Below are positions 2,969 to 21,582 of a DNA stretch of 25,289 nucleotides, piece after piece. Position 1 is the stretch's first letter. Every line of letters begins with the position of its first letter. The translations under genes and the position numbers were made by a program. Location of the stretch: the IMG/VR virus record IMGVR_UViG_3300032736_000431, positions 1-25,289 of that record; one strand, written 5' to 3'. Below the pieces are notes generated by a model. The model made no database searches, was not told the DNA's origin, and saw nothing but the letters and a program-made list of their open reading frames with translations. The DNA comes from a virus.

Positions 2969-2975
2969 CTAGGCG
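2960..2975. other. Putative phage/chromosome junction
   Basis: The phage radical SAM gene ends with TAA at 2967-2965. The frame of the truncated bacterial gene becomes open two bases earlier on the minus strand, immediately after a TAG. Phage-type genes lie only to the right and the DUF1156 gene only to the left. No tRNA gene, integrase or direct repeat is visible here, so I cannot tell an attachment site from a deletion or recombination breakpoint. Confidence 0.4.
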
Positions 2976-7264: not shown

Positions 7265-7266
7265 GA

Positions 7267-7518
7267 TTACCCGAAGGTATTCCCGTTGCCAACTTCAGAA
7301 AGGACCGTCGATGACCTCCCCGATTTTTCGGACCGCCTTGCCATAGTCCTTCTGCGGCCTTCCGCTGACGCGGCTTCGTCCCTAACTGGTGCAGGCGTGG
7401 GAGCAGCGGCGGCTGGCGCGGTCTGGCTTTGTCCTTTTTGTTTGGAACCACCAAAAATAGAGGAAACGGCTTGCGAAGCCAAGGTACTGACAACGGCAGA
7501 CACTACAGATGCGGGCAT
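7267..7518 (-). CDS. Small phage protein between terminase and portal genes
   Basis: The gene gives about 83 residues. The N-terminal 25 residues are small and hydrophobic (VVSAVVSTLASQAVSSIFGG). A low-complexity Ala/Pro/Gln linker follows (QTAPAAAAPTPAPV), then a basic tail. Small genes of this kind often lie before the portal in BPP-1- and Bcep-like phages, but their role is unknown. The start could be the GTG at 7521 or the ATG at 7518, which overlaps the previous stop as TGATG; I prefer the ATG. It ends two bases before the portal start codon. Confidence 0.7.
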   Translation of the reverse strand: MPASVVSAVVSTLASQAVSSIFGGSKQKGQSQTAPAAAAPTPAPVRDEAASAEGRRRTMARRSEKSGRSSTVLSEVGNGNTFG

Positions 7519-7974: not shown

Positions 7975-9552
7975 CTATCTCCTTCTGCGTCTTTGACTGC
8001 GTTTGGTGACAACCCTTGCTTTCGAATTACGGCCCCGGGTGATACGGCCAAGCAATTCATTGCCGCCCCACCAAGACATGACGACTGCATCACCTTCGTT
8101 GGGAGAACGGCCCAATCGTTTAACCAAATCCTCTTTGTTTTCCAGCCTGATTCCGCCCGCCGGGACATCAAAGGTCGGTGCCGTCAGGTCAGAAAGTAGT
8201 GTTTGGCTGGGCGGTAGTGCAATCGGGCAACCGCCCTCTTGATCAGGGTCCAAGGCTTCCCGGAATTTCCAATAGGCGGCGGAACGGATATTTGTAAATC
8301 CAAGGGCGCGGTCGGTGGTCCGGAGAAGCGTTCCTTCGGCCCCTTTATACATCAGCACTTCAATTTTGTTGTCGGTCAAACTTTCCAGGATAGGGCCGCC
8401 GTAGCCGCCGCCCATGTCCAACACGATCAAAGCGCCATCCCGGCGGTTGGCAACAATATGGCCGGTCGAAACCTTGCCCATTGCTTCAATCGGGAGTTCC
8501 TTGCCGGGGATTTCAATCATCGGCGCAAACCAAGTGTCGTACCGGGGGGCAATAACCATCGGGTCTTTGCCACCGCCAGAGGCGTCTACACCCATCGCGG
8601 TCATCGGGTAATTAATCGGCGGGGTTTCTGTCCATCGCTCTTGGGCGGCCTGTATCCACGCGGTCGGAATGACTTGCCGGGGGTGGTCCCGAAGACCAAC
8701 GGTGAAGTTCCCTTCGGCGTATGTCTCTCTCAAATCCGAGGTAAGGTGCGAAAGTTTATCGCCGTAATTGCTTTTGTCTAAATCGGGGTTATCGGTCAAT
8801 TGTGAGCGAATGAAGGTTCTTGACGTTGCTCGGACCAGCCTTTCCACACCCTTGATGACCTTTGGATAAGGCCCGGGGCCATCGACTTCGCGTTCCTTGT
8901 CATCATCGCCCCGGAAGTACCACCTGACTTCGCCGGCAATAGCCGGGTTATGGTGTTTGGGGTCCAGCCATGCGGCGAATTTCTTGACCAGCCAAAGCCC
9001 GTCAGCGGTTAAGGGCGGGTTCGAAGCATAAACAATGCGGCAACGCTGGTCGGGATTGACGGAACGATTCCAGATACCGATAAATTCAACTTGGGTTTCG
9101 GTGAAATCAGCGGCTTCATCAAAGCCGATAAGATCATGCGGTTTTCCTTTATACGATTCCTTGTCGGACTCGTTGAGGCACCCGCCAAAATCCAATAGGC
9201 GATCTTTCATCCGCCACTTCAATAGGGTTCTGTTTAGGCCGTTGGAATGGCCAACAATATCAGCCGTTCTATCGGCCAACGCGCCAGCATCTTCCCGGAT
9301 ACGGCGCAAGATCAAGGATTGTTTGTGGTTGGTAAGGGCTAGGCCGCAAATTAAATCGGACTTGCCGCCGCCCGCCTCTCCACCAAAATACATTTCGTCG
9401 GCGTCACAAAAGAAGGCTTCGGTTTGGGGCCCCGGATTAGGCACCCAAATCAAACCTTGTGTTCCTTCTAGGGCCTCTTTTTCAAGTTCCTTTTTCTTGT
9501 CAGGGTCAAGGCTCTTTATCTCTTCCAATAATTCATCAAGAAGCGAAACCAC
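7975..9552 (-). CDS. terL: Terminase large subunit
   Basis: This 525-residue packaging motor combines ATPase and nuclease. Walker A is GGEAGGGKS at residues 57-65 and Walker B is LIGFDE at 141-146. The RNase H-like nuclease half has the expected acidic residues in GVDASGGGKD, LIVLDMGGG and NEGDAVVMSWW. The C-terminus is strongly basic (RSQRRRRR). The start is GTG at 9552, directly after the TAA of the preceding gene, with GGGGAA upstream. TerL cuts and pumps DNA into proheads through the portal. Unusually, it is about 9 kb of sugar and accessory genes away from terS. Confidence 0.95.
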   Translation of the reverse strand: MVSLLDELLEEIKSLDPDKKKELEKEALEGTQGLIWVPNPGPQTEAFFCDADEMYFGGEAGGGKSDLICGLALTNHKQSLILRRIREDAGALADRTADIVGHSNGLNRTLLKWRMKDRLLDFGGCLNESDKESYKGKPHDLIGFDEAADFTETQVEFIGIWNRSVNPDQRCRIVYASNPPLTADGLWLVKKFAAWLDPKHHNPAIAGEVRWYFRGDDDKEREVDGPGPYPKVIKGVERLVRATSRTFIRSQLTDNPDLDKSNYGDKLSHLTSDLRETYAEGNFTVGLRDHPRQVIPTAWIQAAQERWTETPPINYPMTAMGVDASGGGKDPMVIAPRYDTWFAPMIEIPGKELPIEAMGKVSTGHIVANRRDGALIVLDMGGGYGGPILESLTDNKIEVLMYKGAEGTLLRTTDRALGFTNIRSAAYWKFREALDPDQEGGCPIALPPSQTLLSDLTAPTFDVPAGGIRLENKEDLVKRLGRSPNEGDAVVMSWWGGNELLGRITRGRNSKARVVTKRSQRRRRR

Positions 9553-10440
9553 TTATAATTTCCCCTGGTCCCTGAATAACTGAATGAGCATGTCCACTTT
9601 GGTATCCAAGGTGGACTGCGGCCTTGGGCCTTCTACATTTGGGTCAACGCCGCTGATGACGTAGACTTCCCGCAAGAACCGAGCCATCGATATTTCGCCG
9701 TTAAGTTGGTTGATTTCGGCGGATAGCTGACCGTGCATTGCAGTTTTATCTGCCACCAGTGCGCCAAGATATTCCATCTTGGATTCCAGAGTCATGGCAA
9801 GATGGGTTTCCCAACCTTGGGGGTATGGGACAGGTTCCCGAAGCAAGCCACACCCGTCCGGCATATAGACGTTGACGCCAGCGAGTCTTGCAAGGTCAAT
9901 GAAGTGCCGGGCACCGGTGTATTGGTGCTTGTATTCTTCACCGGATTCCAGATCAATGCCCCAAAGGCCAAGGTCGGTTACGCCTTCTTCTAGGGCCATA
10001 GCAACCGCATAGACAATTGACGATGTGAACCATGTCCGGCCATACTTCTCAAACATTTGCTGTTTGGGATAGACCACATTGGCCGGCCAATCCGGCATCG
10101 AGTCTTCGGTGTAGATAATTTGGGGCGGCTCAACGGCCTTCAATTCTTCCAGATATTCACGGAATCCGTCCGGCCAGCGGCCATTCCCATGAATCTCAAA
10201 GAGGCGTTCCCAGCGGTTTGAATTTTTCCCGCCGGGCCCAATGGTCCAGAATTCCCAAGACAAGTCGTTTAATGGAGCCGCGCCCCGTGAGGGACACGTT
10301 CCAAGAATGCCTATCTTGCGGGGCGGCTTATTCCTGATTTCCCGTTTATACCCATCCATTACGACGGTTTTATATTCGGGGGCTTTCTCTTCAGGCGCGG
10401 GCCGGTTGTCCGCAAGACTCGGCGTTTTCTTCTTAGACAT
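9553..10440 (-). CDS. Rossmann-like phage protein, possibly sialyltransferase/MptE-like fold
   Basis: The 295-residue product starts at the ATG at 10440, which shares its A with the previous stop (TAATG). After a disordered basic start comes a Rossmann-type segment, KIGILGTCPSRGAAPLNDL, then WEFWTIGPGGKNSNRW and FEIHG. The core ends with GVTDLGLWGIDLESGEEY and ARHFIDLARLAGVNVYMPDG, and the C-terminus is helical. Phage proteins with this pattern are common near terL and resemble the GxGPS-type fold of MptE/DUF115 and some sialyltransferases. That link is from pattern recognition only. The 20777-21436 gene encodes a similar protein. Given the sugar cluster, glycosyl transfer is possible but unproven. 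Confidence 0.6.
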   Translation of the reverse strand: MSKKKTPSLADNRPAPEEKAPEYKTVVMDGYKREIRNKPPRKIGILGTCPSRGAAPLNDLSWEFWTIGPGGKNSNRWERLFEIHGNGRWPDGFREYLEELKAVEPPQIIYTEDSMPDWPANVVYPKQQMFEKYGRTWFTSSIVYAVAMALEEGVTDLGLWGIDLESGEEYKHQYTGARHFIDLARLAGVNVYMPDGCGLLREPVPYPQGWETHLAMTLESKMEYLGALVADKTAMHGQLSAEINQLNGEISMARFLREVYVISGVDPNVEGPRPQSTLDTKVDMLIQLFRDQGKL

Positions 10441-10952
10441 TAGCCAATTGTAATCCCAACAGTTGAGCCGATGACCGCCCATTCCGTAGTGCTGATACCA
10501 CGAAGCCGGATGGTCCGCCCGGCAACGGTCGCACCACTGACGAACATCGAAGAACCAGCACCAACGGCGGCGGGCTGGAAGATGATCGAGGTTGCGGTGC
10601 CGCCAAGGGTGAATTCCGAACCGGAGGTGCGGATATTGATTTCTTTTTCAATACCGGCGACCGGGGCCGAAATTTCATGCGCCGTCATAGCCGTGGCCGA
10701 AGCCGTGGCAAGCAATTGGCGACCATAATTAGTGAAGGTGGATCCGACAGAAGCCGCGACGGAGGCATTGGCGTCCAAGGTATTACCAGCAACGGAAAAA
10801 ACGCCGTTGAAGGAAAGTGCCGTCGAGGATGATTTAATCCCGCCGGTAGAGTCTTTCATCAAAGAGCCATAGCCGTTTTTATCGACAATCGCGCCGGTCG
10901 AAGACAGCGCAAGACGCCGCCCGTGGATGGAAGTAAGCCTGTTATAAGCCAT
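10440..10952 (-). CDS. Hypothetical phage protein, probable beta-rich virion component
   Basis: The 170 residues are rich in Ser, Thr, Gly and Ala with alternating hydrophobic residues, for example MFVSGATVAGRTIRLRGI and SIIFQPAAVGAGSS. This is typical of beta-structured virion or decoration proteins. It has no signal peptide, membrane segment or catalytic motif that I can see. A strong AAGGAGAT ribosome site precedes the ATG at 10952. It is coupled by TAATG to the next gene. Composition and the neighbouring gene at 11028 suggest a capsid decoration or fibre-like role, by inference only. Confidence 0.7.
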   Translation of the reverse strand: MAYNRLTSIHGRRLALSSTGAIVDKNGYGSLMKDSTGGIKSSSTALSFNGVFSVAGNTLDANASVAASVGSTFTNYGRQLLATASATAMTAHEISAPVAGIEKEINIRTSGSEFTLGGTATSIIFQPAAVGAGSSMFVSGATVAGRTIRLRGISTTEWAVIGSTVGITIG

Positions 10953-11027: not shown

Positions 11028-11366
11028 TTATCCGCCGTAACCAATGGTGACATTGGCTTCAACGGTCGTGGACGAAACCATCGCCAAGTGCGTATACGAT
11101 GGCTTGGCAAGATGAAGAAAAACAGTTTGTCCGCCTTCAATCAGCATGGAGTCGGAAGACGCGGCGGCAATACCTGAATCACCAAGACCAATATGGAAAT
11201 GAGGCGTCCCGGTTTGTGTGTTGATGCGGACGGTCCGATTGCTTGGCCCCTGCCATTCACGGAGCCCGGTCGATTGCAGCGCCGACGCAAACGATGTGCT
11301 ATCAACCGTTTTTGTAAAACTCGGGGCCGTTGAAAGTATCGGGACGAAAGGTTGATGCACTCGCAT
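11028..11366 (-). CDS. Hypothetical phage protein, probable beta-rich virion component
   Basis: The 112-residue protein begins MRVHQPFVPILSTAPSF and follows an AGGAGC ribosome site. It consists of short predicted strands (HFHIGLGDSGIAA, QTVFLHLAKPSYTHLAMV, EANVTIGYGG) with many Ser and Thr residues. No family is recognised. Pairing with the 10440-10952 gene, between the glycosyltransferase and terL, suggests a two-gene unit of surface or decoration proteins that could even be glycosylation targets. That is speculation. Confidence 0.65.
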   Translation of the reverse strand: MRVHQPFVPILSTAPSFTKTVDSTSFASALQSTGLREWQGPSNRTVRINTQTGTPHFHIGLGDSGIAAASSDSMLIEGGQTVFLHLAKPSYTHLAMVSSTTVEANVTIGYGG

Positions 11367-11376
11367 GGTATTGCTC

Positions 11377-12081
11377 CTAAAAAGCTAGGTGATCTAAATA
11401 TTTTTGTTCGTCGGCCTTGGCCGCCCTTGACCCAATTTCTGAATCGCCGGGCCGGGGAAGGATGTCGCAAAGGACTCTGTCAAGAAATCCCATCTTCACG
11501 CCCGCGTCACGGAATTGTTGCTGAAGATCGGTATCACAAACCCGATTATGGTCATTCTGCCAACAGTCAGGGTTGAACTTGAATGACTTCAGCTTTGACC
11601 GATAAAGCCAAGTCTGAAGAGAGCCGACCTTTACGCCATCAACATCATAGGGCTCAAGGACTCCGTCCGGTGAAGACGCCGCCGCTGACACAAAATCGAA
11701 GGCTTGCTCGTTGGCGAAGGAAAGAAGGCTGGAAATCAGGTCCGGATGCCAAACGTCATCGTCATCGATGGTGGCAATCCAGTCTCCGGTACATTCCTCA
11801 AGACCAGAATTTGAAGCGGCTACTCTGCCGGCGAACCAATGGGTTTCAAGGGTCGGCGGATATGTCAACACTCGGGGGATAGACTTACATCTAACCCGCC
11901 AATCGTGCGAAAAATGGTATGTGGCTACTTCGTTCTCGGTTTGGTCGGTACACCCGTGGGCAACCACAATGATTTCCAAATCCCGGTATGTCTGATTGGT
12001 GACGCTGGGTAAGGCCCGTTCCATTAAAAGGTCCACACGGTTGTGGGTTGGAATATAGACCGATACGAGGGGATTTAACAT
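11377..12081 (-). CDS. Glycosyltransferase family 2
   Basis: The 234-residue protein has a GT-A nucleotide-sugar-binding start, PLVSVYIPTHNRVDLLMERA. NQTYRDLEIIVVAHGCTD follows, and the metal/donor-binding acidic motif is IATIDDDDVWHPD. This is a single-domain GT2 enzyme without membrane segments. GT2 enzymes transfer sugar from NDP-sugars; they are not the usual CMP-sialyltransferase families, so the gene may build an acceptor glycan rather than use the CMP-nonulosonate. Its ATG overlaps the aminotransferase stop (ATGTTAA), so it is part of the sugar operon. Confidence 0.88.
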   Translation of the reverse strand: MLNPLVSVYIPTHNRVDLLMERALPSVTNQTYRDLEIIVVAHGCTDQTENEVATYHFSHDWRVRCKSIPRVLTYPPTLETHWFAGRVAASNSGLEECTGDWIATIDDDDVWHPDLISSLLSFANEQAFDFVSAAASSPDGVLEPYDVDGVKVGSLQTWLYRSKLKSFKFNPDCWQNDHNRVCDTDLQQQFRDAGVKMGFLDRVLCDILPRPGDSEIGSRAAKADEQKYLDHLAF

Positions 12082-13259
12082 TTGATACCCGGTCCGGATG
12101 GGATGTTGATAATGGATTTTGCAAGTCCCATCGTGATTTTCAATTCATCCCTTGGGTTGGATTGATACATCGGCAAAAGGTTTAACGGGGTCCATGCCAA
12201 CCGGGATTCAAGCCCTATGGAATCCAGCAACAGGATAACCTCTTGGCGAAGGGGTTCATCGCTAATATGAACCGCGTTTAACCAATGGTTTGTTGCCCGT
12301 GGGTAGCGTGGAATTCTAGCAAACGGAACATTTTCAATCGCTTCGCCGTACCGGTTGGCCAGTTTCAATTTTGCTGCCAGAATTTCCGGCAAGCGTTCCA
12401 TTTGCGCCACTCCAAGGGCCGCGTTCATGTTCGGCATCCGGTAATTAAAGCCAACATCGACATGCCAGAATTGGTGCGGGACATCAACTTTGGAAACGGA
12501 AGCCATTGTCCGGACTTTAGAGGCGGTGATTTCATCGTTTGTCAGGACCATGCCGCCGCCGCCCGTGGTGATCACCTTGTTGCCGTTGAAGCTGATGGCC
12601 GCCGCGTGGCCGGTGACTTTTTTCAATGCCCCTAAAGCCTGGGCGGAGTCTTCAATAAGGGTTACGCCGTGATCGTCACACACCTTTTTGATTTGATCGA
12701 TGTCGCAAAGGTGGCCGAAGTTATGAACCGCAACCACGGCCTTGACCGTGTGGTTTCTTAGCCAATCATCCAGCCACACCGGGCTTAGGCCGCCGTATTT
12801 GTCGCAATCGACAAAATTTGGTATCGCACCGCAATAACTGACCGCGTTGGCGACGGCCACAAACGTAAAAGCCGGGACCACAACATGATCACCGGGCTTA
12901 ATATGGGCGGATAATAGGGCTAGATGCAGGGCGGCGGTGCCGCTGGAAACGGCGACGGCATGTTTGGCCCCGGTTTCTTTGGCAACGGCCTTCTCAAAGC
13001 GTTCAACGTGGGGCCCGTGGGTGACAGCGCCTATGCTGACGGCCTCTTTAACCGCGTTTGCTTCAGAACGGCCTATCAGCGGGGCATGAAGTAGGGCCCG
13101 GCCTTTTACAACGCCCCGGATTGCCGCAACGACATCAAACGCTCTGCTTCCTGAAAATCTTTCAGGTGATCGATGTCCACTGATTTCTCTTCCTCCATAC
13201 GGTAGGTCGCCACTCTCCCCGTGTCGAAGAGTCCCGTTTCCCTTAGCCATGTTGTCCAT
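12075..13259 (-). CDS. LegC-like PLP-dependent sugar aminotransferase (DegT/DnrJ/EryC1 family)
   Basis: The frame spans 394 codons. The conserved protein begins near residue 41 (AFDVVAAIRGVV), which resembles the F-EVV-x-x-IR start of LegC enzymes. SSGTAALHLAL lies at 106-115, IEDSAQALGA at 202-211, and the PLP Schiff-base lysine in SFNGNKVITTGGGG is K228. LegC aminates the 4-keto sugar made by a 4,6-dehydratase in legionaminate synthesis. Start problem: there is no ATG, GTG or TTG in frame near residue 41, and the only visible ATGs (13259 and 13250) lie about 150 bases inside the cytidylyltransferase gene. A rare start codon, a long overlap or a frameshift must be involved. Confidence 0.88.
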   Translation of the reverse strand: MDNMAKGNGTLRHGESGDLPYGGREISGHRSPERFSGSRAFDVVAAIRGVVKGRALLHAPLIGRSEANAVKEAVSIGAVTHGPHVERFEKAVAKETGAKHAVAVSSGTAALHLALLSAHIKPGDHVVVPAFTFVAVANAVSYCGAIPNFVDCDKYGGLSPVWLDDWLRNHTVKAVVAVHNFGHLCDIDQIKKVCDDHGVTLIEDSAQALGALKKVTGHAAAISFNGNKVITTGGGGMVLTNDEITASKVRTMASVSKVDVPHQFWHVDVGFNYRMPNMNAALGVAQMERLPEILAAKLKLANRYGEAIENVPFARIPRYPRATNHWLNAVHISDEPLRQEVILLLDSIGLESRLAWTPLNLLPMYQSNPRDELKITMGLAKSIINIPSGPGIKC

Positions 13260-13702
13260 GCAATATATACCGCCCCGTTTGCGTCCGGCCCACGGTCATC
13301 AACAGTGATACATGACGGGGCTTTTGAGTGAAAACAAGTAAGAATGCAGCCATCAATATCTTCAACGGTCCGCATCGGAGAAGTAGCCTGAAGTAAAACC
13401 GTGTAATCGTGCGGTTCGTAAAATTCCAGAACATTGAAAATGGCGTCGTATATTGAGGACTCGTCCGCCGCAAGGTGCAGTGGCCTATCGTTTATTTCAA
13501 CATTGTGGCTCTTGACCACATTGACCACGGCGGGGTCATCGGTTGAAACAACAATCTTATCGATGAATTTACTCTTTTTGGCCTCTTCAACGGCATACAT
13601 AACCATCGGCTTGCCGTTTAAATCCCGCATGTTCTTTCCAGGAAGCCGTTTGGAGCCTGCCCGGGCCGGGATGATGGCCAGAATGGTTTTACCGTTGATC
13701 AT
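13106..13702 (-). CDS. CMP-nonulosonate synthetase (acylneuraminate cytidylyltransferase, NeuA/LegF-like), shortened
   Basis: The enzyme joins CTP to a nonulosonic acid to give the CMP-sugar. From the ATG at 13702, which overlaps the hisF-like stop as ATGA, it has 198 residues. The nucleotide-binding start IPARAGSKRLPGKN (11-24) is intact, as are VVSTDD (51-56), LLQATSPMRT (103-112) and the metal-binding SVDID (174-178). The family is usually about 225-235 residues. Here SCITVDDRGPDANGAVYIA is compressed, removing the loop that normally holds the R..LP..Y.NG segment of the sugar site. It may be active with an unusual substrate, or impaired. Confidence 0.9.
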   Translation of the reverse strand: MINGKTILAIIPARAGSKRLPGKNMRDLNGKPMVMYAVEEAKKSKFIDKIVVSTDDPAVVNVVKSHNVEINDRPLHLAADESSIYDAIFNVLEFYEPHDYTVLLQATSPMRTVEDIDGCILTCFHSKAPSCITVDDRGPDANGAVYIAWTTWLRETGLFDTGRVATYRMEEEKSVDIDHLKDFQEAERLMSLRQSGAL

Positions 13703-14490
13703 GCCGCCTCCCTTATTGGAATTCCGACCTTCAACAAATGGTCCCGGGTTTTCTTCAGGGGAATGGTGTCGTAATGCAGGCAATGAGCCATTGCGATGGC
13801 GTCCGCGCCAGCCTCGAAGGCGGCGGCGGCATCGATAATGCTTCCCATGCCACCGGAAGCGATGACCGGCACCTTACAGTTTTGGGCAATGCTGTGGATT
13901 AAATCGGTGCTAAAGCCCGTTTGGGTGCCTTCGCGGTCAATGGATGTCAGAAGGATTTCACCGGCACCTAATTCCACGACTTGACGGGCCCAATCTTCGG
14001 CGCACTTGCCGGTGTTTTCTCTTCCGCCGTCACACCAAACCATATTCGTATAAGCCGACCCCGGGCCGCCGTCATCCACTGGCCAAATATACCGCTTTAC
14101 GTCGATTTGCGCGACGATGGCTTGGCAGCCAAATTTTTCCGCGAGTTCTGTAATGATTCGTGGGTTGGCGGTGGCGGCGGTGTTGATTGCGATCTTGTCT
14201 GCACCTGACCGGAAAAGCCGGGCTGCATCATCGACGGTTCGAATACCGCCCCCGACTGTAATAGGGCAGAACACATCTTGGCTGGTATCTGATACCAATT
14301 GATGCAAAGCGTTCCGTCCGTATAAACTAGCCACGGTATCAAGAAATAAGATTTCATCGATTCCTTGGACATTGTATTTCCTCGCGTACTCGTTGGGGTC
14401 GCCAATGACACGCAAGCCCTCCATCCTGATTTGCTTTATCAAATTGTTGGATTTGATGTCCAGACGGGCTATGAGGCGTTTTTTAAGCAT
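13699..14490 (-). CDS. HisF-like cyclase subunit paired with the sugar amidotransferase
   Basis: The 263-residue beta/alpha barrel is homologous to imidazole glycerol phosphate synthase subunit HisF. Both catalytic aspartates are present, D11 in ARLDIKS and D130 in AQIDVKR. The phosphate-binding loops TVGGGIRTVDD and ASGGMGS are also intact. In flagellin and LPS clusters a second HisF/HisH pair supplies ammonia or an intermediate to PseA/WbpG-type amidotransferases, and the direct coupling here (ATGCTTAA overlap with the amidotransferase stop) supports that role rather than histidine synthesis. No HisH glutaminase subunit is in the window. Confidence 0.92.
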   Translation of the reverse strand: MLKKRLIARLDIKSNNLIKQIRMEGLRVIGDPNEYARKYNVQGIDEILFLDTVASLYGRNALHQLVSDTSQDVFCPITVGGGIRTVDDAARLFRSGADKIAINTAATANPRIITELAEKFGCQAIVAQIDVKRYIWPVDDGGPGSAYTNMVWCDGGRENTGKCAEDWARQVVELGAGEILLTSIDREGTQTGFSTDLIHSIAQNCKVPVIASGGMGSIIDAAAAFEAGADAIAMAHCLHYDTIPLKKTRDHLLKVGIPIREAA

Positions 14491-15700
14491 CGAACACCGT
14501 TTTGCGTAATTCGTATGAGGCGTTATCCCGCGTCCAGATTTTCGAGTTGCGGTAGCGGTTTACGACTTGCCAAAAATGGTTATTGTCCAGCCCAAGATAT
14601 TTTTGGGTTAAATCCATGTGGCGGCCCGGAACTTCGCCATCGTAACGCTTAACCAGTGCGACGGCCTCTTCCCGGGTGATTTCGCCGGACCGGACTTCTT
14701 GGGCCGCGTCGGACGTACACCGGCCCATGCCGAATTTGATGTAGGCCATAAAATAATGCAGGCCATCGGTGGCGTCATCCAAGGAAGCATATTTGGAATA
14801 TGTCCCTTCGGACCGGCCTTCGGGGTTTGATTCAAAGCCGTGGTTTTGGGCCGCCCGGTAGTAATTCGATTGAGGGTGCCAAAACTTGTAATACCCGAGC
14901 CAATGAAATTCAGGATTCCGGTCAAATTCCATCGGGGGCAAAGAGTAAAACTGGCTTATCTCCCGGATTTCATGTTTTTCAAAGGCCCCGATTTCAAGGC
15001 CGATGTCGATCAGCTTTTGAACGCCGGACCCCTTCTGATAAATCCGGTCCCAATCTTTCGTGTCCCACGATGGCTTGTCGTTGGCCGCCGGGTCGCCGCC
15101 GTATTCGGCTTCTCCGTTCTCACCAAAGAACACAATGGGAATATTGAACCTATAGGCCATCTGCATGGGATAGCAAAGCTGGCCGAATATGAAGGGAATG
15201 AATGGGTCGCCGTAATACTCGAAGGACAGCCGGGCCAACTTGCGGTGAATGATACCGTTGGGCCATGCCACTAGAGCGTCATATCCGGACTGTATGAAAC
15301 TGTCAAAATTCTTGAAGCCAATATCGGTATAAATAAACGGGGCCCACTTGACGCACAACGGGTTCATTCCGTGTTGCTCTTTCAGGGTGGCGGCGACGAA
15401 GGTGGAGTCTTTACCGCCGGAACACGGAACAATGACATCATAGCCGGACGTTTTCCGGTGCTTATCAAGAACCCCGCAAAGTTCACCGTGCCGTGCTGGC
15501 CAATTGATTTCGCTTTTCTTTTTTTCTGCGTATCGGCAAGCGGAGCAAACGCCTTCATCATCAAAGACAATGCGCGGGCGCTGGTTGCTTATAACACACC
15601 GCTTACAAAATTTGATTTCTTCCGGGCCGGTTTGTTCATCCAATGACTTGGCTTCGGCCCGGATGCGTTCTTCGACTTCGTTATCCCAAAGAGGGGTCAT
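14483..15700 (-). CDS. N-acetyl sugar amidotransferase (PseA/WbpG/LegA-type PP-loop enzyme)
   Basis: The 405-residue protein has an N-terminal zinc-like knuckle (CKRC at 32-35 and CSAC at 52-55) and an ATP-pyrophosphatase P-loop, VPCSGGKDST, at 91-100. The C-terminal part carries GGDPAAND and the long helical region usual for the family. PseA converts an N-acetyl group of pseudaminic acid to an acetamidino group, and WbpG does the same on a mannuronic acid derivative. By family, this gene makes an amidino sugar. Its ATG overlaps the stop of a tiny membrane-protein gene (ATGA), and it overlaps the hisF-like start by 8 bases. Confidence 0.92.
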   Translation of the reverse strand: MTPLWDNEVEERIRAEAKSLDEQTGPEEIKFCKRCVISNQRPRIVFDDEGVCSACRYAEKKKSEINWPARHGELCGVLDKHRKTSGYDVIVPCSGGKDSTFVAATLKEQHGMNPLCVKWAPFIYTDIGFKNFDSFIQSGYDALVAWPNGIIHRKLARLSFEYYGDPFIPFIFGQLCYPMQMAYRFNIPIVFFGENGEAEYGGDPAANDKPSWDTKDWDRIYQKGSGVQKLIDIGLEIGAFEKHEIREISQFYSLPPMEFDRNPEFHWLGYYKFWHPQSNYYRAAQNHGFESNPEGRSEGTYSKYASLDDATDGLHYFMAYIKFGMGRCTSDAAQEVRSGEITREEAVALVKRYDGEVPGRHMDLTQKYLGLDNNHFWQVVNRYRNSKIWTRDNASYELRKTVFDA

Positions 15701-15804
15701 TGCTCACCATCGTTTATTGCTCCGATTATCAACCAAATAGCGCAAAGACAAAAAATAAACACCACCACAATACCAAGATCGGCCATCAACTCACCAACCG
15801 TCAT
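15697..15804 (-). CDS. Single-pass membrane microprotein (35 aa)
   Basis: A 35-codon frame starts at the ATG at 15804 (MTVGELMADLGIV) and contains one hydrophobic segment, VVVFIFCLCAIWLIIGAI, with the charged tail NDGEQ. It fits precisely between neighbours: its ATG overlaps the stop of the upstream gene as ATGA, and its own TGA overlaps the amidotransferase ATG in the same way. This double coupling and the continuous membrane helix make it a convincing small gene. Function unknown; it could anchor a sugar enzyme complex or act as a small membrane regulator. Confidence 0.7.
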   Translation of the reverse strand: MTVGELMADLGIVVVFIFCLCAIWLIIGAINDGEQ

Positions 15805-16022
15805 TGCTGGATACGGGATGTGATTTCCCCTTGCTTGTCCATAGGGACCGGGGATTCCTTGCCACATTTCGTACATTGGGTTGCCACCAGAACATTCAGG
15901 GCCTTTTTATGATCAACCTTGACCATCAGGAAGAATTCAACACCACCGCATTGGCAATTACCGAAGCCGTTTGCGCCAAGGCCAAGGGCCCGTATGCCGG
16001 GAACGATAGTCTTTTCAGCCAT
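15801..16022 (-). CDS. Small Cys-rich (zinc-ribbon-like) protein
   Basis: The 73-residue protein begins MAEKTIVPGIRALGLGA. It has CQC near residues 23-25 and CTKC near 50-53, spaced for one zinc site, separated by a beta-type segment (VEFFLMVKVDHKKALNVLVA). No family is recognised. It starts just before the HNH gene's stop boundary and is coupled by ATGA to the membrane microprotein. Its position within the sugar operon is the only functional clue. Confidence 0.7.
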   Translation of the reverse strand: MAEKTIVPGIRALGLGANGFGNCQCGGVEFFLMVKVDHKKALNVLVATQCTKCGKESPVPMDKQGEITSRIQQ

Positions 16023-16460
16023 TTAGGTTTTTGCCCGTTGGTCGGCGGCTTTTTTACGAGAACATTTTCGGCAACGTCGGTGCCCGCTTTCAAAATATAA
16101 ATTTTGGCCTGAATATGGGTGGCCCTGCGGGCAATGTGTTTTTGTCGCATGTCTGTTATGCCACCGCCCACGATCACAAGTCCGTTGCGCGTTCTCTTGT
16201 TGTGTCACCGCGTCAAGATGCTCTGGATTTACACAAGCCGGAACCGAGCATATATGATCAACGACCAGCCCTTCTTGGATTGGCCCATTCTCTAATTCGT
16301 AAGCAAACCGATGGGCATAAACAAGACGCTCCCCGTCCCAAAAATGACCATAGCCCCCACGCACAGTTGCTGCTTGCCAAAGAAGGCAATCCGAACCAAC
16401 ATCCGGCTTAACTTTCTTTAAAAACCTCTCTTGTGGGCTTTCTGTTACTTTGAATGTCAC
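16023..16460 (-). CDS. HNH endonuclease (homing-type)
   Basis: The 145-residue protein has the phage HNH_3-like arrangement: CLLWQAATVRGGYGHF near residues 25-40, AHRFAYELENG, then the catalytic VVDHICSVPACVNPEHL and the N-containing helix VTQQENAQR. A second zinc-binding part (THCPQGHPY followed by CRKCS) binds DNA in related enzymes. Such nucleases nick or cut DNA and often behave as selfish genes in phages. It overlaps the radical SAM stop by four bases, so it is well fitted into the operon and not a crude insertion. Confidence 0.92.
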   Translation of the reverse strand: MTFKVTESPQERFLKKVKPDVGSDCLLWQAATVRGGYGHFWDGERLVYAHRFAYELENGPIQEGLVVDHICSVPACVNPEHLDAVTQQENAQRTCDRGRWHNRHATKTHCPQGHPYSGQNLYFESGHRRCRKCSRKKAADQRAKT

Positions 16461-17371
16461 GATTCAGCGCCTTCCGTAAGTCCCATATAATCCCAGCAAA
16501 CATTACACAAGGGAAGGCTGTAATCGTCTTTACTTAGGTGTTCCCTGTATTTTTCGATTATAGACTCTGTCCAAAGCAATTCGATGGGAACTGTTTGGAC
16601 ATTTCCAATGGTGTTTTTGCCTGAAAAATCATTACAGCACGTTACCACGGAGCCATCCCAATGGATTGATAATTTGTCGTTTACTTCCGGGCAGGGTTTT
16701 GGGTGCCGGAAACCTTCGTCCTTTGCGCCGTCACCCATAAAATCGAAGATGGTTTTGCCGACAGTGATTTGATCGACCATCGGGTATAACCTATCTTTGA
16801 ACGCCTCAATTTGTTCTTGAGTCTCATTTGTCGTGGTTGTGGACACCGATATATATGGCCGTGAATTTACGCTTCTGACGCCAGACATTATGGCGATTTT
16901 ATCAAGTAGGGGTTCGAAATAATCAATCTTACGCATTTCTGAGAAGGATTTACTGTCTACCCCCTGAAACGAGAATTTTATTGAGTCCAACCCGGCAGAA
17001 AGTAGATCGCCTGCCATTTTTTCGGTTAATTTACTCCCGTTGGTGTTGATGTGGGTTGGGAGCCCAGCGTCATTCGCCATTTGAACGAAATTGACGATCT
17101 CGGGATGTAAAAGCGGTTCACCAAACCCAATAAATCGGATTCCGGTGCCGCGTCCTACGCAATCACCGACAATAACCGAAAAAGTAGTCATGGACATAAA
17201 ATCTTGTGCCCGGCCAAGGGTGCCAACGCCGGTTGGGCACATTTTGCACTTAAAATTACAAACGCCAGCGGGCTCAACGTCGATGATGGTCGGGAAATCT
17301 GGAAGGTTACGGAATTTTTCGGCGTTGGTGCCTGTGTTGCATTTTTCATAAAGAGGCTTGAACGGGTTCAT
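16457..17371 (-). CDS. Radical SAM/SPASM-like protein in the sugar cluster
   Basis: From the ATG at 17371, which overlaps the acetyltransferase stop as ATGA, it has 304 residues; a longer frame start upstream lies inside the neighbour. The radical SAM motif is CNFKCKMC (C38, C42, C45), followed by GFGEPLLHP. The C-terminal region (VTCCNDFSGKNTIGNV, then LPLCNVCWDYMG) has the cysteines of a SPASM-type auxiliary-cluster domain. Related proteins occur in bacterial surface-polysaccharide loci and may epimerise, deoxygenate or methylate sugars. The exact reaction cannot be read from sequence; the context suggests modification of the sugar made here. Confidence 0.88.
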   Translation of the reverse strand: MNPFKPLYEKCNTGTNAEKFRNLPDFPTIIDVEPAGVCNFKCKMCPTGVGTLGRAQDFMSMTTFSVIVGDCVGRGTGIRFIGFGEPLLHPEIVNFVQMANDAGLPTHINTNGSKLTEKMAGDLLSAGLDSIKFSFQGVDSKSFSEMRKIDYFEPLLDKIAIMSGVRSVNSRPYISVSTTTTNETQEQIEAFKDRLYPMVDQITVGKTIFDFMGDGAKDEGFRHPKPCPEVNDKLSIHWDGSVVTCCNDFSGKNTIGNVQTVPIELLWTESIIEKYREHLSKDDYSLPLCNVCWDYMGLTEGAES

Positions 17372-17856
17372 ACGAAGACCTTCCCCGCTTTTACGAATGA
17401 TCTTGGCTTGCAAGTTTTTCCTTCGACAACGACCGCGTTTGCCCCGATAAAAGACGCGGCCCCGATGGTGCATCCACCAAGCACGACGGCCCCCGGCGCA
17501 ATATGGCAATGATCTTGGACAACAGAGTCATGGTCAACTTGGGCCCCTGTATTGATGATGACGTTGTTTCCTATCCTGGCACCGGCTTGGATGATGGCCC
17601 CGGCCATGATTTGCGCCCCGTGCCCGACAACAACATCCGGTGCAACAATGGCGCTTGAATGGGTGACGGACAAAAAGCGTTCCGCCCCGTAATGCTTAAA
17701 TATTGCAAACCGCGCCCCGATGTCGCCAATGCCGTTCAACAATTCGGCGTCGAGTGGGGCGTCCTCTTCGGGTTCGATGGACATGAAATCAACACCAGCC
17801 GCGAGAAGCGATTTAAGGACTCTGGCGTGGCCGCCTTGGCCAATTACATAGATCAT
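17368..17856 (-). CDS. NeuD/PglD-like sugar O- or N-acetyltransferase
   Basis: The 162-residue protein has the short N-terminal Rossmann-like start of the family, MIYVIGQGGHARVLKSLL. It continues as a left-handed beta-helix of hexapeptide repeats from about residue 70 (APDVVVGHGAQIMAGAIIQA, IGNNVIINTGAQVDHDSVV). The active-site histidine is in TGAQVDHDS. NeuD acetylates sialic acid, while the related PglD and LegH acetylate a 4-amino sugar in bacillosamine or legionaminate synthesis; beside LegC- and LegG-like genes the latter step fits well. It is shorter than usual (about 200-210 residues), mostly in the N-terminal part. Its start overlaps the 2-epimerase stop (ATGA). Confidence 0.88.
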   Translation of the reverse strand: MIYVIGQGGHARVLKSLLAAGVDFMSIEPEEDAPLDAELLNGIGDIGARFAIFKHYGAERFLSVTHSSAIVAPDVVVGHGAQIMAGAIIQAGARIGNNVIINTGAQVDHDSVVQDHCHIAPGAVVLGGCTIGAASFIGANAVVVEGKTCKPRSFVKAGKVFV

Positions 17857-18848
17857 GCGGCCTGCTTCCTTAAAACGCCTTCAATCGGGGTGGTGGCCAG
17901 CAATTCAGCTATCTTCTTGGAAGCGCCGGGCTTGCCATAGGGGTTCCAGTGGGTGCCGTGGCCGAAAAGTGGGGTTGAGTGCGTTAGCGCGGCATTAATG
18001 GCACCTTTTATGGAATTTGATTCTGCCTTGGTGTTAAATATGCCCTTGGCTTGTGCCCTGCCCTTCTGGCGGTCGCCTATGTTGACGGTCGGGACGCCTA
18101 GCGTCGGGCACTCAATGATGAATGAAGAGGAATTGCCAATCACGGCGGCGGCATGGCGGCAATGGCGAAGGTAGCCTTCGGGCGTCCAGTTTACTTGATG
18201 ACAGTAATCCAGTGTCGCGGTTATCTTTTCGTGGCCGGGGTCATTGTTCACGCCGGTCCAATAAATATGATAATCCGGAAACTCTGCCAAGGCTTCAACC
18301 AAGGCTTTAATGCCGTGATCATTACCAAGGGTTTCCGGATGATATGTCACCACAAAATATTTGCACGGGTCACGCGGGCCTTCGGCCAAGATCGGCACCA
18401 GATTGTCCAATCCCGGGGCCCCAACGAGAAAAATCCGCATAGGTTCTTCGCCCATACGGATTAGTCGTTCTTGCGCCTCTTGAGTAGCGACGAAATGAAG
18501 GTGGGATAGTTTGGAAATTGCATTCCGGATGGCGTCATCAAAAGCGCCTTCGGTGATTTCGCCTCCATGAATATGAGCAATCGGTATTTTGGCCACCGTG
18601 GCCGCACCGCAACATGCCAAAGTCTCGTACCTGTCACCAAGGACAAGCAGAATATCAATCTGATTTTTGGCGAAAAACAACGCCGACGACTTGGCGGAAT
18701 CGGAATAGCCTCGCAGCGCGTCCGGATTACCCGGAAGGCTAAGGCGCAATATCTGAATGTCGGGGGTTTTCTCCAATTCTGCGATGACCGGAGAAATCGG
18801 CCCTTTATCGGCGCGGCCTGACCAAGCCACGCATATTGTACGGGTCAC
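17853..18848 (-). CDS. UDP-sugar 2-epimerase, hydrolysing type (NeuC/LegG-like)
   Basis: The protein has 331 residues. The GDRYETL motif is at 71-77. HIHGGEITEGAFDDAIRNAI (93 onward) and GNSSSFIIECPTLGVPTVNI are signatures of the NeuC/LegG subfamily. It hydrolyses and epimerises a nucleotide N-acetyl sugar, giving the ManNAc-type (or 2,4-diacetamido-mannose) precursor for nonulosonate synthesis. The start is GTG at 18848, directly after the terS TAA. The length is somewhat under the usual 370 or so, with shorter N-terminal connections, but the active-site motifs are present. Confidence 0.92.
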   Translation of the reverse strand: MTRTICVAWSGRADKGPISPVIAELEKTPDIQILRLSLPGNPDALRGYSDSAKSSALFFAKNQIDILLVLGDRYETLACCGAATVAKIPIAHIHGGEITEGAFDDAIRNAISKLSHLHFVATQEAQERLIRMGEEPMRIFLVGAPGLDNLVPILAEGPRDPCKYFVVTYHPETLGNDHGIKALVEALAEFPDYHIYWTGVNNDPGHEKITATLDYCHQVNWTPEGYLRHCRHAAAVIGNSSSFIIECPTLGVPTVNIGDRQKGRAQAKGIFNTKAESNSIKGAINAALTHSTPLFGHGTHWNPYGKPGASKKIAELLATTPIEGVLRKQAA

Positions 18849-19349
18849 TTAATCAACGACTCCTTCAATTGTGATGGGTTCTTTGGCGAGGCGTCCGGGT
18901 TGCTGAAGAATGAAGGCCACTCTCCTTGCCAGTTCATTATCGGACATTTCGTTTTGTGGAATAAGGGGGGTGCCGTCTTTGCCGGTGACTTCGGTTCGGG
19001 AAGTCGGCGCAAAGCGTTCCGGCCAGCCACGTTCCAACATGAATTGAAGCATCCGGTCCGAATATTCCATTTCCGTGCCGATGACTTCGCCTTGGTAGTA
19101 TTTGGCTCGTTCAACGCCCTCATAAGCGCGGCGGACGGCCTCTTCTTCCAGCTTTTCAAAGATTTCGGCGCGGGCGGTTTCAAATTGGACCTGAAACGCC
19201 TTGTCTTTCTGACGAAGGCCATAAAAGCCCTCATAGGTCCGGCCAGCGGCTTTCGCAGCAACGTCCTGTTTTCGGGTTTTCCGATAAACGTCAAGGAAGA
19301 CCGCTTGTTCTTCTTCGGTAATAGGTGAATTGCTTTTAAAATTAGCCAT
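18849..19349 (-). CDS. terS: Terminase small subunit (putative)
   Basis: The 166-residue protein begins MANFKSNSPITEEEQAVFLDVYRK. A predicted helix-turn-helix follows (TRKQDVAAKAAGRTYEGFYGLRQKD), then a long helical segment with AYEGVERAKYYQGEVIGT and YSDRMLQFMLERGWPERFA, a pattern seen in many phage small terminases and related DNA-recognition proteins. It would recognise the packaging site and hand DNA to TerL. It is the first gene after the ops-like leader. An overlapping frame at 18845-19294 is a shadow. The separation from terL by the sugar genes is unusual. Confidence 0.8.
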   Translation of the reverse strand: MANFKSNSPITEEEQAVFLDVYRKTRKQDVAAKAAGRTYEGFYGLRQKDKAFQVQFETARAEIFEKLEEEAVRRAYEGVERAKYYQGEVIGTEMEYSDRMLQFMLERGWPERFAPTSRTEVTGKDGTPLIPQNEMSDNELARRVAFILQQPGRLAKEPITIEGVVD

Positions 19350-19373: not shown

Positions 19374-19383
19374 TGCTACCGCA
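19374..19383 (-). promoter_or_regulatory. ops-like antiterminator recruitment site
   Basis: On the minus strand this reads TGCGGTAGCA. The RfaH target ops has the form GGCGGTAGNNT, so GCGGTAG matches exactly and only the first G differs. It lies in the untranslated leader 25 bases upstream of the terS ATG and just downstream of the RfaH-like gene, the arrangement expected if that protein loads on polymerase here. The match is short, so chance is possible. Confidence 0.5.
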
Positions 19384-19426: not shown

Positions 19427-19456
19427 AGAGTAATCTTATTGATGATTAACTGTCAA
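19427..19456 (-). promoter_or_regulatory. Possible promoter of the late/sugar operon
   Basis: A consensus -35 box, TTGACA (19456-19451), overlaps the end of the RfaH-like gene. With an 18-base spacer, the -10 candidate is TACTCT (19432-19427), only half matching TATAAT. Transcription from here would include the hairpin and the ops-like site. A second TTGACT at 19403-19398 has no better -10. Confidence 0.35.
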
Positions 19457-19935
19457 GCGACATGCCGTTCCGGTACGCTGGCCCTCACTTTCCGGCCAAA
19501 CATGTTAAGCAATGTAATTATCCTGTCACCCTGTCTTTGGCAATAAAGGCCGTCGAGGCCGATATAGGCCCCGCCTACAATGCGGACAAGTTGGTTGGGC
19601 TTAAAGTGGCGCTCTTGAACGGTTTCGCTGTGAATTATGACGGCACCGCCGTCTTCGTCCACCTTGGCACGAATCGCGTCTATGATGGATTCTTCAAGAT
19701 TTGCGGGTGATTTATCGCCATTAGTCACAAGGTAGGATACGCCGGGGGTGCTGGTAACAGGCCGCCAAGGGCGGTCTTCTGCCATCCATAGAAATAAATA
19801 TCGTGGGAAAAGGGGTGTTAAATCTGGCCCTCGCTCTGGGCGACACATCGGTAAAAAAGTTGTAAACCCTTGTTGTTTAAGGTGTTTTTCCGCCCGGACC
19901 TCTTCGCGGGGCTTCGTATAACATACCATTGCCAT
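19453..19935 (-). CDS. RfaH-like transcription antiterminator (specialised NusG paralogue)
   Basis: The 160-residue protein matches the NusG/RfaH family. The NGN domain opens with MAMVCYTKPREEVRAEKHL and QGFTTFLPM, and contains PLFPRYLFLW at 41-50 and TPGVSYLVTNG. A KOW domain follows near 112-130 (PNQLVRIVGGAYIGLDG), then ITLLNMFGRKV. Length equals RfaH (about 162). RfaH-type proteins bind elongating RNA polymerase at ops and let it read through long, poorly translated surface-polysaccharide operons. Here the target would be the operon beginning at terS, which contains an ops-like site. A GGGAGGG ribosome site precedes the ATG at 19935. Confidence 0.9.
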   Translation of the reverse strand: MAMVCYTKPREEVRAEKHLKQQGFTTFLPMCRPERGPDLTPLFPRYLFLWMAEDRPWRPVTSTPGVSYLVTNGDKSPANLEESIIDAIRAKVDEDGGAVIIHSETVQERHFKPNQLVRIVGGAYIGLDGLYCQRQGDRIITLLNMFGRKVRASVPERHVA

Positions 19936-19994: not shown

Positions 19995-20058
19995 GTAGGT
20001 TGCCGGTCGCGGGCCCTGAAAGGTAGTGAGAGGCCCCACCGGCTGACGGGGTTGATTA

Positions 20059-20784
20059 TCATGCGCGGCACGAACCGTCTAATCCGCGTCCGCCCACGCC
20101 CTTCTTTGGATAGAAGGGCGTGGGCGGCAGGGCAACCACTCGTATTCGTTTCAACAATCGGTGAACGCTGGTCGAATGCCAACGGCCACCTTTCTCGGTT
20201 TTTTTGTCTTCGGCGTTTAGGGCATCGGCTATATCCCGGCAAGTGTGGATACCCTTTTTCCGGAACCGGGTAAGGGTCGGCTTCAGTTCTAGGGCGCGTT
20301 CCAAGGCACCCAGGCGGTTGATTGCGGCCCTTTGGGGTCCAGCGGTGCCCAGCCTGACGCCACGGCGCTTGGCGGCGGCCAGGGCGGCCTTGGTGCGGTC
20401 TGAAATCATCCCCGATTCCAATTCAGCGACCGCCGCCATCATGGTCAAGAAGAATTTTTGCATTGGCCCTTGGGGCATTTGCGGAAAGTCGCAAAATATG
20501 ATGGAAACGCCGGACTCCACTATTTCCAACAGGAACTTGGCGTTTCTGGATAACCGATCTAGCTTGGCGACTATAAGAGTAGCATTTCTGCTATTAGCCA
20601 GTTCTAGCGCATTTGCTAGTTCTGGTCTGGTTTTACGCCGCCCGGATTCAACCTCTTGAAACTCACCCAATAGGCTCTGGCCGCCGGCAAACAGCTTTAC
20701 AGTAGCCATTTGGGCCTCTAGTCCAAGACCGGACCGGCCCTGCATCTTGGTACTCACCCGGTAATATGCGACGTAATCAGTCAT
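20059..20784 (-). CDS. Serine recombinase (resolvase/invertase family)
   Basis: The 241-residue protein begins MTDYVAYYRVSTKMQGRSG with catalytic Ser11. It continues with EVESGRRKTRPELANAL and LIVAKLDRLSRN, then AAVAELESGMISDRTKAAL, all standard for small serine recombinases. A helix-turn-helix-like C-terminus ends W-x-S-x-x-V-x-x-LLKR. It joins or inverts DNA at short sites. It is not next to the visible junction at 2966, so a resolvase or inversion role, or an acquired gene, is as plausible as phage integration. The last codons lie over a perfect 16-bp inverted repeat. The start overlaps the preceding gene by 8 bases. Confidence 0.9.
   Translation of the reverse strand: MTDYVAYYRVSTKMQGRSGLGLEAQMATVKLFAGGQSLLGEFQEVESGRRKTRPELANALELANSRNATLIVAKLDRLSRNAKFLLEIVESGVSIIFCDFPQMPQGPMQKFFLTMMAAVAELESGMISDRTKAALAAAKRRGVRLGTAGPQRAAINRLGALERALELKPTLTRFRKKGIHTCRDIADALNAEDKKTEKGGRWHSTSVHRLLKRIRVVALPPTPFYPKKGVGGRGLDGSCRA
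20090..20127. repeat. Perfect 16-bp inverted repeat (hairpin or recombination site)
   Basis: CCGCCCACGCCCTTCT and its exact complement flank a 6-base TTGGAT spacer. The repeat is inside the 3' end of the serine recombinase gene. It would form a very stable RNA stem but has no U-run on either strand, so it is not a typical terminator. The recombinase tail it encodes (PPTPFYPKKGVGGRG) looks unlike the family and may have been created by the repeat. Confidence 0.75.
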
Positions 20785-21436
20785 TTATAAAATCCCTTGT
20801 GGATACATGGCCGTGTTTTTTAAGTTCCCTTGCAACTCGGAAATGATTTCCGCTTTTGATTGTGTGGACGGCGGCGCTCATAACAATGGCGGCCTCTTCC
20901 TCGCCCTTCAAATTTTTGTAGCCATATTTTCCGCTTTGCCAAGGGAAGGGTTTTCCAAGTATGGAGCCCGGGGAGATTTCAACATGAATCCCCCGGCCTT
21001 CGGCAAACCCCCGCCAAAAATCAAGGCACGGCTTCTGGCTGACGTATTCCCAACAGCCGTCACGGGGCGTTTGGATGCCGTGAATTAGGATGACGTCGGG
21101 CTTTTGCCGTATGGCTTCCGCGAACATATAGGCGGCGGTGCAAGTGTAATAATCGTCAACCCTGACTTCGCGCCGCAACCGTTTGAGGTTAAACTTCTGT
21201 GATCTAGGGATTTCCTCAAAATGCTTCTGCATATAAATTTCAAAATCACCCTTATTGACCTGTTTTATAAAATGATTTCGGTTGTCCCTCGCTTCGTCAA
21301 CCTCAAGGATTTCCAAGGGGTCCATCGCAAATATTTTATCGACCCTTGATGTCTGGAAGGCAAAATTGACGCCCCATATTTCGCCGTCGCCGTCGTAACT
21401 TGGGTCAAATCCGACAAGGACAATCTTCTTAGGCAT
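20777..21436 (-). CDS. Rossmann-like phage protein, similar to the 9553-10440 product
   Basis: The gene encodes 219 residues from the ATG at 21436; the SD-like GGAGGTGG and the upstream small gene's stop place the start there. It begins KKIVLVGFDPSYDGDGEIWG, has DKIFAMDPLEI, and later TCTAAYMFAEAIRQKPDVIL, HGIQTPRDGCWEYVSQKPC and RGIHVEISPGSILGKPFPW. The order of features (Rossmann start, W-x-x-N/G line, Y-x-x-A-x-A helix, GI strand, G-V strand, P-x-P end) parallels the gene beside terL. I regard them as distant homologues of one phage fold. Enzymatic function unknown. Confidence 0.65.
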   Translation of the reverse strand: MPKKIVLVGFDPSYDGDGEIWGVNFAFQTSRVDKIFAMDPLEILEVDEARDNRNHFIKQVNKGDFEIYMQKHFEEIPRSQKFNLKRLRREVRVDDYYTCTAAYMFAEAIRQKPDVILIHGIQTPRDGCWEYVSQKPCLDFWRGFAEGRGIHVEISPGSILGKPFPWQSGKYGYKNLKGEEEAAIVMSAAVHTIKSGNHFRVARELKKHGHVSTRDFIND

Positions 21437-21582
21437 CATCCACCTCCAAACATTTCGTCGTGTCTCGCCCATTCCTCGCAAACGCAGCATTCCGGCATAA
21501 ATTCAGTACAACGAGGCCCGTATATCCAATAGGTGAACAGCCATGAAATCGGGCGGTCTAAAAAGCAGAAGAAGCTACGCAT
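21436..21582 (-). CDS. Small Cys-rich protein (48 aa)
   Basis: The frame encodes 48 residues, begins MRSFFCFLDRPISWLFTYWI and ends with a compact cluster, CTEFMPECCVCEEWARH, that could bind one zinc ion. The ATG at 21582 follows a strong GGAGGTGG site inside the end of the preceding gene. The same GGAGGTGGATGATG sequence recurs at its own 3' end, starting the next gene, and the TGA overlaps that start codon. Coupling on both sides supports a real gene. No family is recognised. Confidence 0.6.
   Translation of the reverse strand: MRSFFCFLDRPISWLFTYWIYGPRCTEFMPECCVCEEWARHDEMFGGG

Follow-up and report, generated by a model that had tools for sequence, protein, structure and literature searches.

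Why does a phage carry genes for making and amidinating nonulosonic acids between the genes for the two subunits of its terminase? The question is raised by IMG/VR virus record IMGVR_UViG_3300032736_000431, a stretch of 25,289 bases that we analyzed at its full length (here called the window). The record is probably a fragment, and the absences reported below speak for this contig only. The best-supported explanation, which we consider moderately probable, is a phage-encoded nonulosonate system that would O-glycosylate a spike of the virion, in analogy to flagellin glycosylation by Maf proteins. The sugar synthesis part of this explanation is well supported.

The main genes of the window all lie on the minus strand. 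In order of transcription they encode an RfaH-like NusG paralogue, the terminase small subunit (TerS), NeuC, NeuD, a radical SAM/SPASM protein, an HNH endonuclease, the small open reading frame (ORF) orf15801, WbuX and WbuZ, followed by a CMP-synthetase, a LegC-type aminotransferase, a GT2 glycosyltransferase, orf11028, a spike-like protein, a GT42-like protein, the terminase large subunit (TerL), a GNAT protein and the portal protein; beyond the portal gene are a scaffold-like gene, a second radical SAM gene and a DNA methyltransferase gene. Most adjacent genes of the block abut or overlap by 1–8 nucleotides (nt), and gaps of 75–100 nt precede WbuX and the spike gene. The terS gene (18849–19349; phrog_4044, E 1.7e-27) and the BPP-1/AP1-related terL gene (7975–9552; phrog_979, E 2.7e-21) are thereby separated by ~9.3 kb. 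The window TerL is 39% identical to the TerL proteins of Acidovorax phage AP1 and Bordetella phage BPP-1, two cultured phages with a BPP-1-type terminase in which terS directly adjoins terL with no sugar genes between them. Unlike in these two phages, the cluster does split the terminase genes of the window, as a preliminary description of this DNA had noted. BPP-1 also resembles the window in having a GNAT gene behind TerL, and its head–tail adaptor is 24% identical to that of the window.

Profile matches confirm that all eight enzymes named in the preliminary description lie between terS and terL, at 11377–18848 on the minus strand, and the family assignments support its view that they are phage-borne enzymes of nonulosonate synthesis and amidination. 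The NeuC/LegG hydrolysing UDP/GDP-sugar 2-epimerase (17853–18848), shortened in its N-terminal region, scores 265 bits against TIGR03568 (cut-off 236). Its best match in the Protein Data Bank (PDB) is 5xvs, a GDP/UDP-N,N'-diacetylbacillosamine 2-epimerase (E 4e-63), far ahead of the epimerases of UDP-N-acetylglucosamine (UDP-GlcNAc), which indicates the legionaminate branch rather than that of N-acetylneuraminic acid (Neu5Ac). The WbuX/PseA N-acetyl-sugar amidotransferase (14483–15700) scores 322 bits against TIGR03573 (cut-off 203), retains an intact PP-loop (SGGKDS) and matches the solved amidotransferase 8wex with E 4e-105. Its WbuZ/HisF-type amidation partner (13699–14490) reaches 248 bits with TIGR03572, below the cut-off, and 243 bits with TIGR00735; a HisH-type glutaminase (WbuY) was not found among the window proteins scanned. 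The remaining members are a NeuD/PglD-type hexapeptide N-acetyltransferase (17368–17856; TIGR03570, 1e-36), a shortened CMP-nonulosonate synthetase of the PseF/NeuA type (13106–13702; TIGR03584 (PseF) 1.6e-27, 97 bits versus a cut-off of 206, and E 1e-26 against CMP-Neu5Ac synthetases in the PDB), a LegC-type sugar aminotransferase dependent on pyridoxal phosphate (12075–13259; TIGR04181, 7e-103, 344 bits versus a cut-off of 420, with a perosamine synthase as closest PDB entry at 2e-74), a radical SAM/SPASM protein (rSAM1, 16457–17371; Pfam Radical_SAM 8e-15, SPASM 1e-9) that is 46–50% conserved in most relatives, and the GT2 glycosyltransferase (11377–12081; Pfam GT2 1e-20). Several of these enzymes are shortened, and WbuZ, LegC, NeuD and the CMP-synthetase fall below the curated scores of families that are nevertheless their best matches. 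The LegC frame has no ATG, GTG or TTG near the conserved start, and the 5' part of its ORF shares ~150 nt with the CMP-synthetase gene; an overlap of similar kind is seen in the related loci L008, L017 and L027, and dual coding or a non-canonical start of LegC is possible.

Is this arrangement a lasting property of phages? Relatives were recovered by scans with WbuX, the GT42-like protein, LegC and the portal protein; for WbuX, a single sequence found nothing among viral contigs and a two-sequence alignment found seven loci. At least 10 IMG/VR phage contigs from several metagenomes share the locus, so that the comparison with related phages proposed in the preliminary description did reveal the same insertion. 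The locus can be followed from TerS to TerL in L017 and L008/L012, and phage structural genes flank the block on both sides in the window, L017, L008/L012 and L020, which is not the arrangement of a chromosomal locus. Phage-only clades apart from the chromosomal relatives are fully supported for WbuX (8 sequences, 100%), NeuB (5) and NeuC (6), and have support of 98% for WbuZ (5 sequences) and 90% for the CMP-synthetase (7); LegC forms two phage groups instead of a single phage clade. Among themselves, the phage WbuX proteins are 53–72% alike, and no match to WbuX was found in 50,697 GenBank phage records. Comparison of the window with L027, L021 and L017 gave a proportion of non-synonymous differences (pN) of 0.14–0.30 against a synonymous proportion (pS) of 0.54–0.83, indicating purifying selection and therefore that the genes of the block are maintained.

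The block is thus not a chance assembly, because most neighbors overlap by 1–8 nt, pN is far below pS relative to the relatives and at least 10 divergent phages share the gene set. Its position between terS and terL is stably kept within a phage lineage. The enzyme families are common on chromosomes, as would be expected if a chromosomal polysaccharide locus had been captured by chance, or a chimera assembled, with no lasting role in the phage. We regard this as very improbable given the recurrence of the same TerS–TerL block in independent metagenomes, the phage-only clades, the purifying selection and the tight gene packing. A chimeric assembly or host island was rejected on the recurrence of the locus in relatives, the phage-only WbuX clade and the chromosomal WbuX loci, which are mostly ordinary nonulosonate loci with no terminase, spike or GT42-like gene. 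A polysaccharide locus of the host chromosome that is merely surrounded by phage genes, a finding that the preliminary description had named as its own refutation, is contradicted by the likeness of the phage WbuX proteins, by the phage-only clades of most of the enzymes and by the lack of these three genes in the chromosomal WbuX loci.

The relatives also reveal which pathways can occupy this place. L014, L018 and L026 encode LegB (TIGR04180, ~330 bits), LegC, NeuC, NeuB, NeuD and a CMP-synthetase beside WbuX and WbuZ, together with a sugar-1-phosphate nucleotidyltransferase, and so contain the full legionaminate route. NeuB is present in L008, L014, L017, L018, L021 and L026. A pseudaminate version lies in the same place in L195, where PseI (378 bits, cut-off 340) and a Pse-associated methylase are above their cut-offs and are accompanied by PseF, WbuX and WbuZ, with a PseB-like dehydratase in an adjoining stretch. 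The site next to these spike and GT42-like genes is thus filled by one nonulosonate pathway in some phages and by another in others. In L016 and L020 the gene set is reduced, and L020 encodes a CBS-domain nucleotidyltransferase of LegE/PtmE architecture.

If the block is maintained, what would its product be attached to? The preliminary description had overlooked the genes downstream of GT2 as far as TerL (orf11028, the spike-like gene and the GT42/Maf-like gene), as well as the HNH endonuclease that interrupts the block (16023–16460). The GT42/Maf-like protein (9553–10440) is a putative nonulosonate transferase by profile and predicted fold. Its AlphaFold model (mean predicted local distance difference test score, pLDDT, 80) is matched to CstII by Foldseek (E 8e-4, prob 1.00), and VIA-align gives Z 10.9 with Maf (5mu5) and Z 9.4–10.2 with Cst-I/II. 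Members of the family were found in 58 loci, and in the window lineage the gene stands beside a terminase gene; none was found in 754 genomes belonging to the same classes as two organisms with a chromosomal WbuX. The adjacent gene (10440–10952) encodes a spike/connector-type virion protein and candidate glycan acceptor. Its AlphaFold2 model (pLDDT ~80 from about residue 60 on) resembles T4 gp9/gp10 and tailspike connector domains (Z 8–10.5) and the capsid spike of podophage Pa223 (Z 7.5); the sequence profile matched no relevant solved structure, so that the likeness is one of predicted fold alone. Serine and threonine make up 25% of the window spike and 22–35% of spike proteins, as compared with 10% in TerL and portal, and relatives have up to three copies of the spike gene. 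The small orphan orf11028 (11028–11366), another candidate virion protein, is likewise rich in these residues (25%) and has homologues in L021, L016 and L018.

Loci recruited with the portal protein, which were scanned with profiles, allow the association to be examined in a set not selected for sugar genes. In 30 of them the sequence upstream of TerL extends for 5 kb or more. Among these 30, nonulosonate genes occur in all 10 loci that have the GT42-like gene and the spike, and in none of the 20 that lack them (Fisher p 3e-8). After dereplication of TerL at 80% the counts are 7/7 with the GT42-like gene versus 0/18 without (p 2e-6). The spike itself accompanies the GT42-like gene in 11/11 portal-recruited loci and is found in none of 24 that lack it. 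More tentatively than glycosylation of the spike as such, and with somewhat less than even confidence, we propose that a podovirus-type lineage encodes complete nonulosonate synthesis, activation, amidination and transfer dedicated to O-glycosylated spikes, in which the legionaminate and pseudaminate routes replace each other beside a conserved transferase–spike pair. This would be a Maf-like system of viral origin.

Several observations weigh against spike glycosylation by a nonulosonate system. On the portal tree the co-occurrence may need as few as two changes, and the portal-recruited loci are therefore not independent. L016 has the GT42-like gene and spike with no recognized CMP-synthetase or NeuB, on a contig that ends upstream. 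When the GT42-like family profile is compared with the PDB, the top seven matches are all GT42 sialyltransferases but at E 0.09–0.5, a weak sequence match, and thiamin pyrophosphokinase (Z 10.7) and HPPK (Z 10.6), which share the fold class, align with the model about as well as Maf does. The GT42 catalytic histidine was not placed in the protein, and a CMP-synthetase is nearby in only 6/27 distant GT42-like clusters. The first 60 residues of the spike model are of low confidence. Finally, searches of the 25.3-kb contig with tblastn and hidden Markov models yielded no NeuB/LegI/PseI synthase and no NeuB remnant, and no LegB/PseB-type 4,6-dehydratase was present among the window proteins scanned.

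With NeuB and LegB missing, de novo sugar synthesis cannot be ascribed to the contig alone; the preliminary description of an almost complete pathway holds for the relatives and not for the window. The LegC stop overlaps the GT2 start (ATGTTAA, 12075–12081) at exactly the place that NeuB has in relatives: NeuB follows LegC in L017, and in the close relative L021, whose GT2 is 76% identical to that of the window, the end of NeuB coincides with the start of GT2. The simplest reading is that NeuB was cleanly lost from the LegC/GT2 junction. The missing steps can also be taken to mean that the window phage makes an amidinated nucleotide sugar rather than a nonulosonate, with WbuX, GT2 and the radical SAM proteins as the core of the system and some other sugar on the spike. 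WbuX, GT2, the spike and the GT42-like gene do persist in L016 and L020 without most nonulosonate genes, and on one chromosome (L103) homologues of WbuX, the second radical SAM protein and GT2 are adjacent, though a CMP-synthetase adjoins them too. We nevertheless think this improbable: the window has retained its CMP-synthetase and NeuC under purifying selection, NeuB occupies in L021 and L017 the very spot where the window has none, and every full relative has NeuB together with the block.

The preliminary description had left the target open between coating of the virion and a change of the host surface. Of the two, virion coating is favored, because the block co-occurs with the spike gene and no multi-transmembrane flippase or polymerase is predicted among the ORFs scanned. 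Sugars of this kind occur on the O-antigen, capsule or flagella of many bacteria, the enzymes resemble those of chromosomal surface-polysaccharide loci, and phage-borne enzymes that modify capsule nonulosonates are known (epaA/epaB, PMC12053666), all of which would suit a nonulosonate made or edited for host lipopolysaccharide, capsule or flagellin, with serotype change or receptor masking (superinfection exclusion) as the outcome. That outcome is unlikely, if less so than a sugar other than a nonulosonate, as the block lies between packaging genes and tracks the spike gene. Moreover, no protein with three or more predicted transmembrane helices, and no multi-transmembrane protein of the GtrA flippase or GtrC transferase type, was found in the window block or the scanned ORFs of six relatives' cassettes; neither a flippase or polymerase nor GtrAB-type genes were seen, which disfavors export of a lipid-linked glycan.

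For glycosylation of the spike, we infer the following substrates, sugar, transferase reaction, acceptor and timing. The route would start from nucleotide-activated 4-keto-6-deoxy-GlcNAc, which LegC would aminate and NeuD N-acetylate; NeuC would then epimerize C2 with release of the nucleoside diphosphate, and NeuB would condense the product with phosphoenolpyruvate to a legionaminate-type nonulosonic acid. For the window phage, either the host or portions of the phage genome that have not been sequenced would have to supply the NeuB and LegB steps. Activation with CMP, and then amidination by WbuX with WbuZ, would take place in the cytoplasm, where the GT42/Maf-like transferase, perhaps with GT2, may add the sugar to serine or threonine residues of the adjacent spike/connector protein. 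Glycosylation of the spike would thus be a cytoplasmic event of late gene expression, ahead of virion assembly.

How does such a system compare with those already known? One of its closest counterparts is the legionaminic/acetamidino-legionaminic acid pathway (LegB-C-H-G-I-F with PseA/PtmG-type amidination), whose LegC, NeuC/LegG, NeuD/LegH, CMP-synthetase and WbuX/PseA homologues are clustered in the window and to which relatives add LegB, NeuB/LegI and, in L020, the LegE/PtmE-like CBS-nucleotidyltransferase. The window version differs in being phage-borne, in having several shortened enzymes, in its location within the terminase block and in its additional HNH and radical SAM genes, and it lacks NeuB and LegB. 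Maf proteins transfer nonulosonates to flagellin serine or threonine in the cytoplasm before export (PMC4065374), and their family includes a putative legionaminyl transferase (PMC9298399). The predicted core fold of the GT42-like protein resembles that of Maf and the GT42 sialyltransferases, though about equally that of thiamin pyrophosphokinase and HPPK, and the protein has an adjacent CMP-nonulosonate pathway, as in flagellin glycosylation islands; it differs in its low identity (12–18%), its long C-terminal helix and its putative acceptor, a phage spike rather than flagellin.

What is known of virion glycosylation in phages concerns mainly transferases that draw on the sugars of the host. 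In mycobacteriophages, reportedly, only the transferases are phage-encoded, whereas here sugar biosynthesis is phage-encoded too and the class of sugar differs; the two are alike in that phage-encoded glycosyltransferases act, here putatively, on virion proteins. That mycobacteriophage virions are glycosylated is the work of Freeman et al. 2023 as cited in PMC12619734. The epaA/epaB genes of Acinetobacter prophages likewise act on nonulosonates, but they epimerize host-made pseudaminate in the capsule (PMC12053666), and they neither build the sugar de novo nor act on the virion. A list of metabolic genes of phages includes pseI (PMC6359870), and a sialyltransferase has been annotated in an Azotobacter phage (PMC12772287). 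NeuB-like matches in the 50,697 GenBank phage records number three, all distant, and include cyanophage-like and huge phage records (MH319754, LR756508), the first of which also has a LegC match and a weak CMP-synthetase match; these pseI/neuB genes are ~33% identical and, in the stretch read, have no WbuX, NeuC, spike or GT42-like neighbors. A literature search of incomplete coverage found no paper tying a phage nonulosonate pathway to virion spikes. If spikes are glycosylated in this way, some phages coat their particles with self-made sialic acid-like sugars, possibly altering their charge, escaping binding or mimicking the host surface. The system provides shortened forms of NeuC, NeuB and CMP-synthetase as well as a candidate minimal transferase–acceptor pair, and it suggests a function for the widespread GT42-like family of phage proteins.

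A hint of regulation comes from the gene that immediately precedes terS and the cassette (19453–19935, minus strand), which encodes an RfaH/NusG-like antiterminator (Pfam NusG 4e-14) whose best PDB match is RfaH (E 1.3e-6), ahead of NusG. The gene has the same position in L027, L017, L012 and L020. In the leader between it and terS lies a putative ops-like core, GCGGTAGC (19375–19382, minus strand), which recurs in the corresponding leaders of L027 (5200) and L017 (4189). This 8-mer is not rare and occurs elsewhere by chance, only its placement being suggestive, and RfaH-type antitermination of the late operon is therefore kept as a mere hint. General promoter and terminator scans gave results at chance level. 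Upstream of the RfaH-like gene is a match to the Rfam Proteo-phage-1 RNA (20041–20133, 52.7 bits), and a second, divergent GT42-like family protein is encoded outside the cassette near early genes (20777–21490, minus strand; E 8e-34 with a profile built from distant phages only). L027 has a GT42-like gene in a similar position.

The HNH homing-type endonuclease (phrog_826, 8e-51) has related genes beside WbuX at slightly shifted positions (window 16023–16460, L216 9258–9704, L008 6623–7234), as for mobile guests; in the L026 phage (locus L216) the HNH-like ORF sits between rSAM1 and WbuX. Just upstream of WbuX, orf15801 (15697–15804) encodes 35 residues with one predicted transmembrane helix. 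The cassette of L026 includes a B12-type radical SAM protein (5726–7279; nearest families AprD4 and BchE) that perhaps makes a further sugar modification. The second radical SAM protein of the window (rSAM2, 2965–3864, minus strand) is far from the cassette and adjoins a capsid gene in relatives; it is 62–67% conserved in L016, L023 and L026 and 63% in L013, and the chromosomal homologue between WbuX and the GT2 homologue in L103 (Giovannonibacteria) is 52% conserved. Large in-frame, intein-like insertions were observed in the TerL ORFs of L003 (8687–11380), L004 (67–2607) and L008 (17837–20392).

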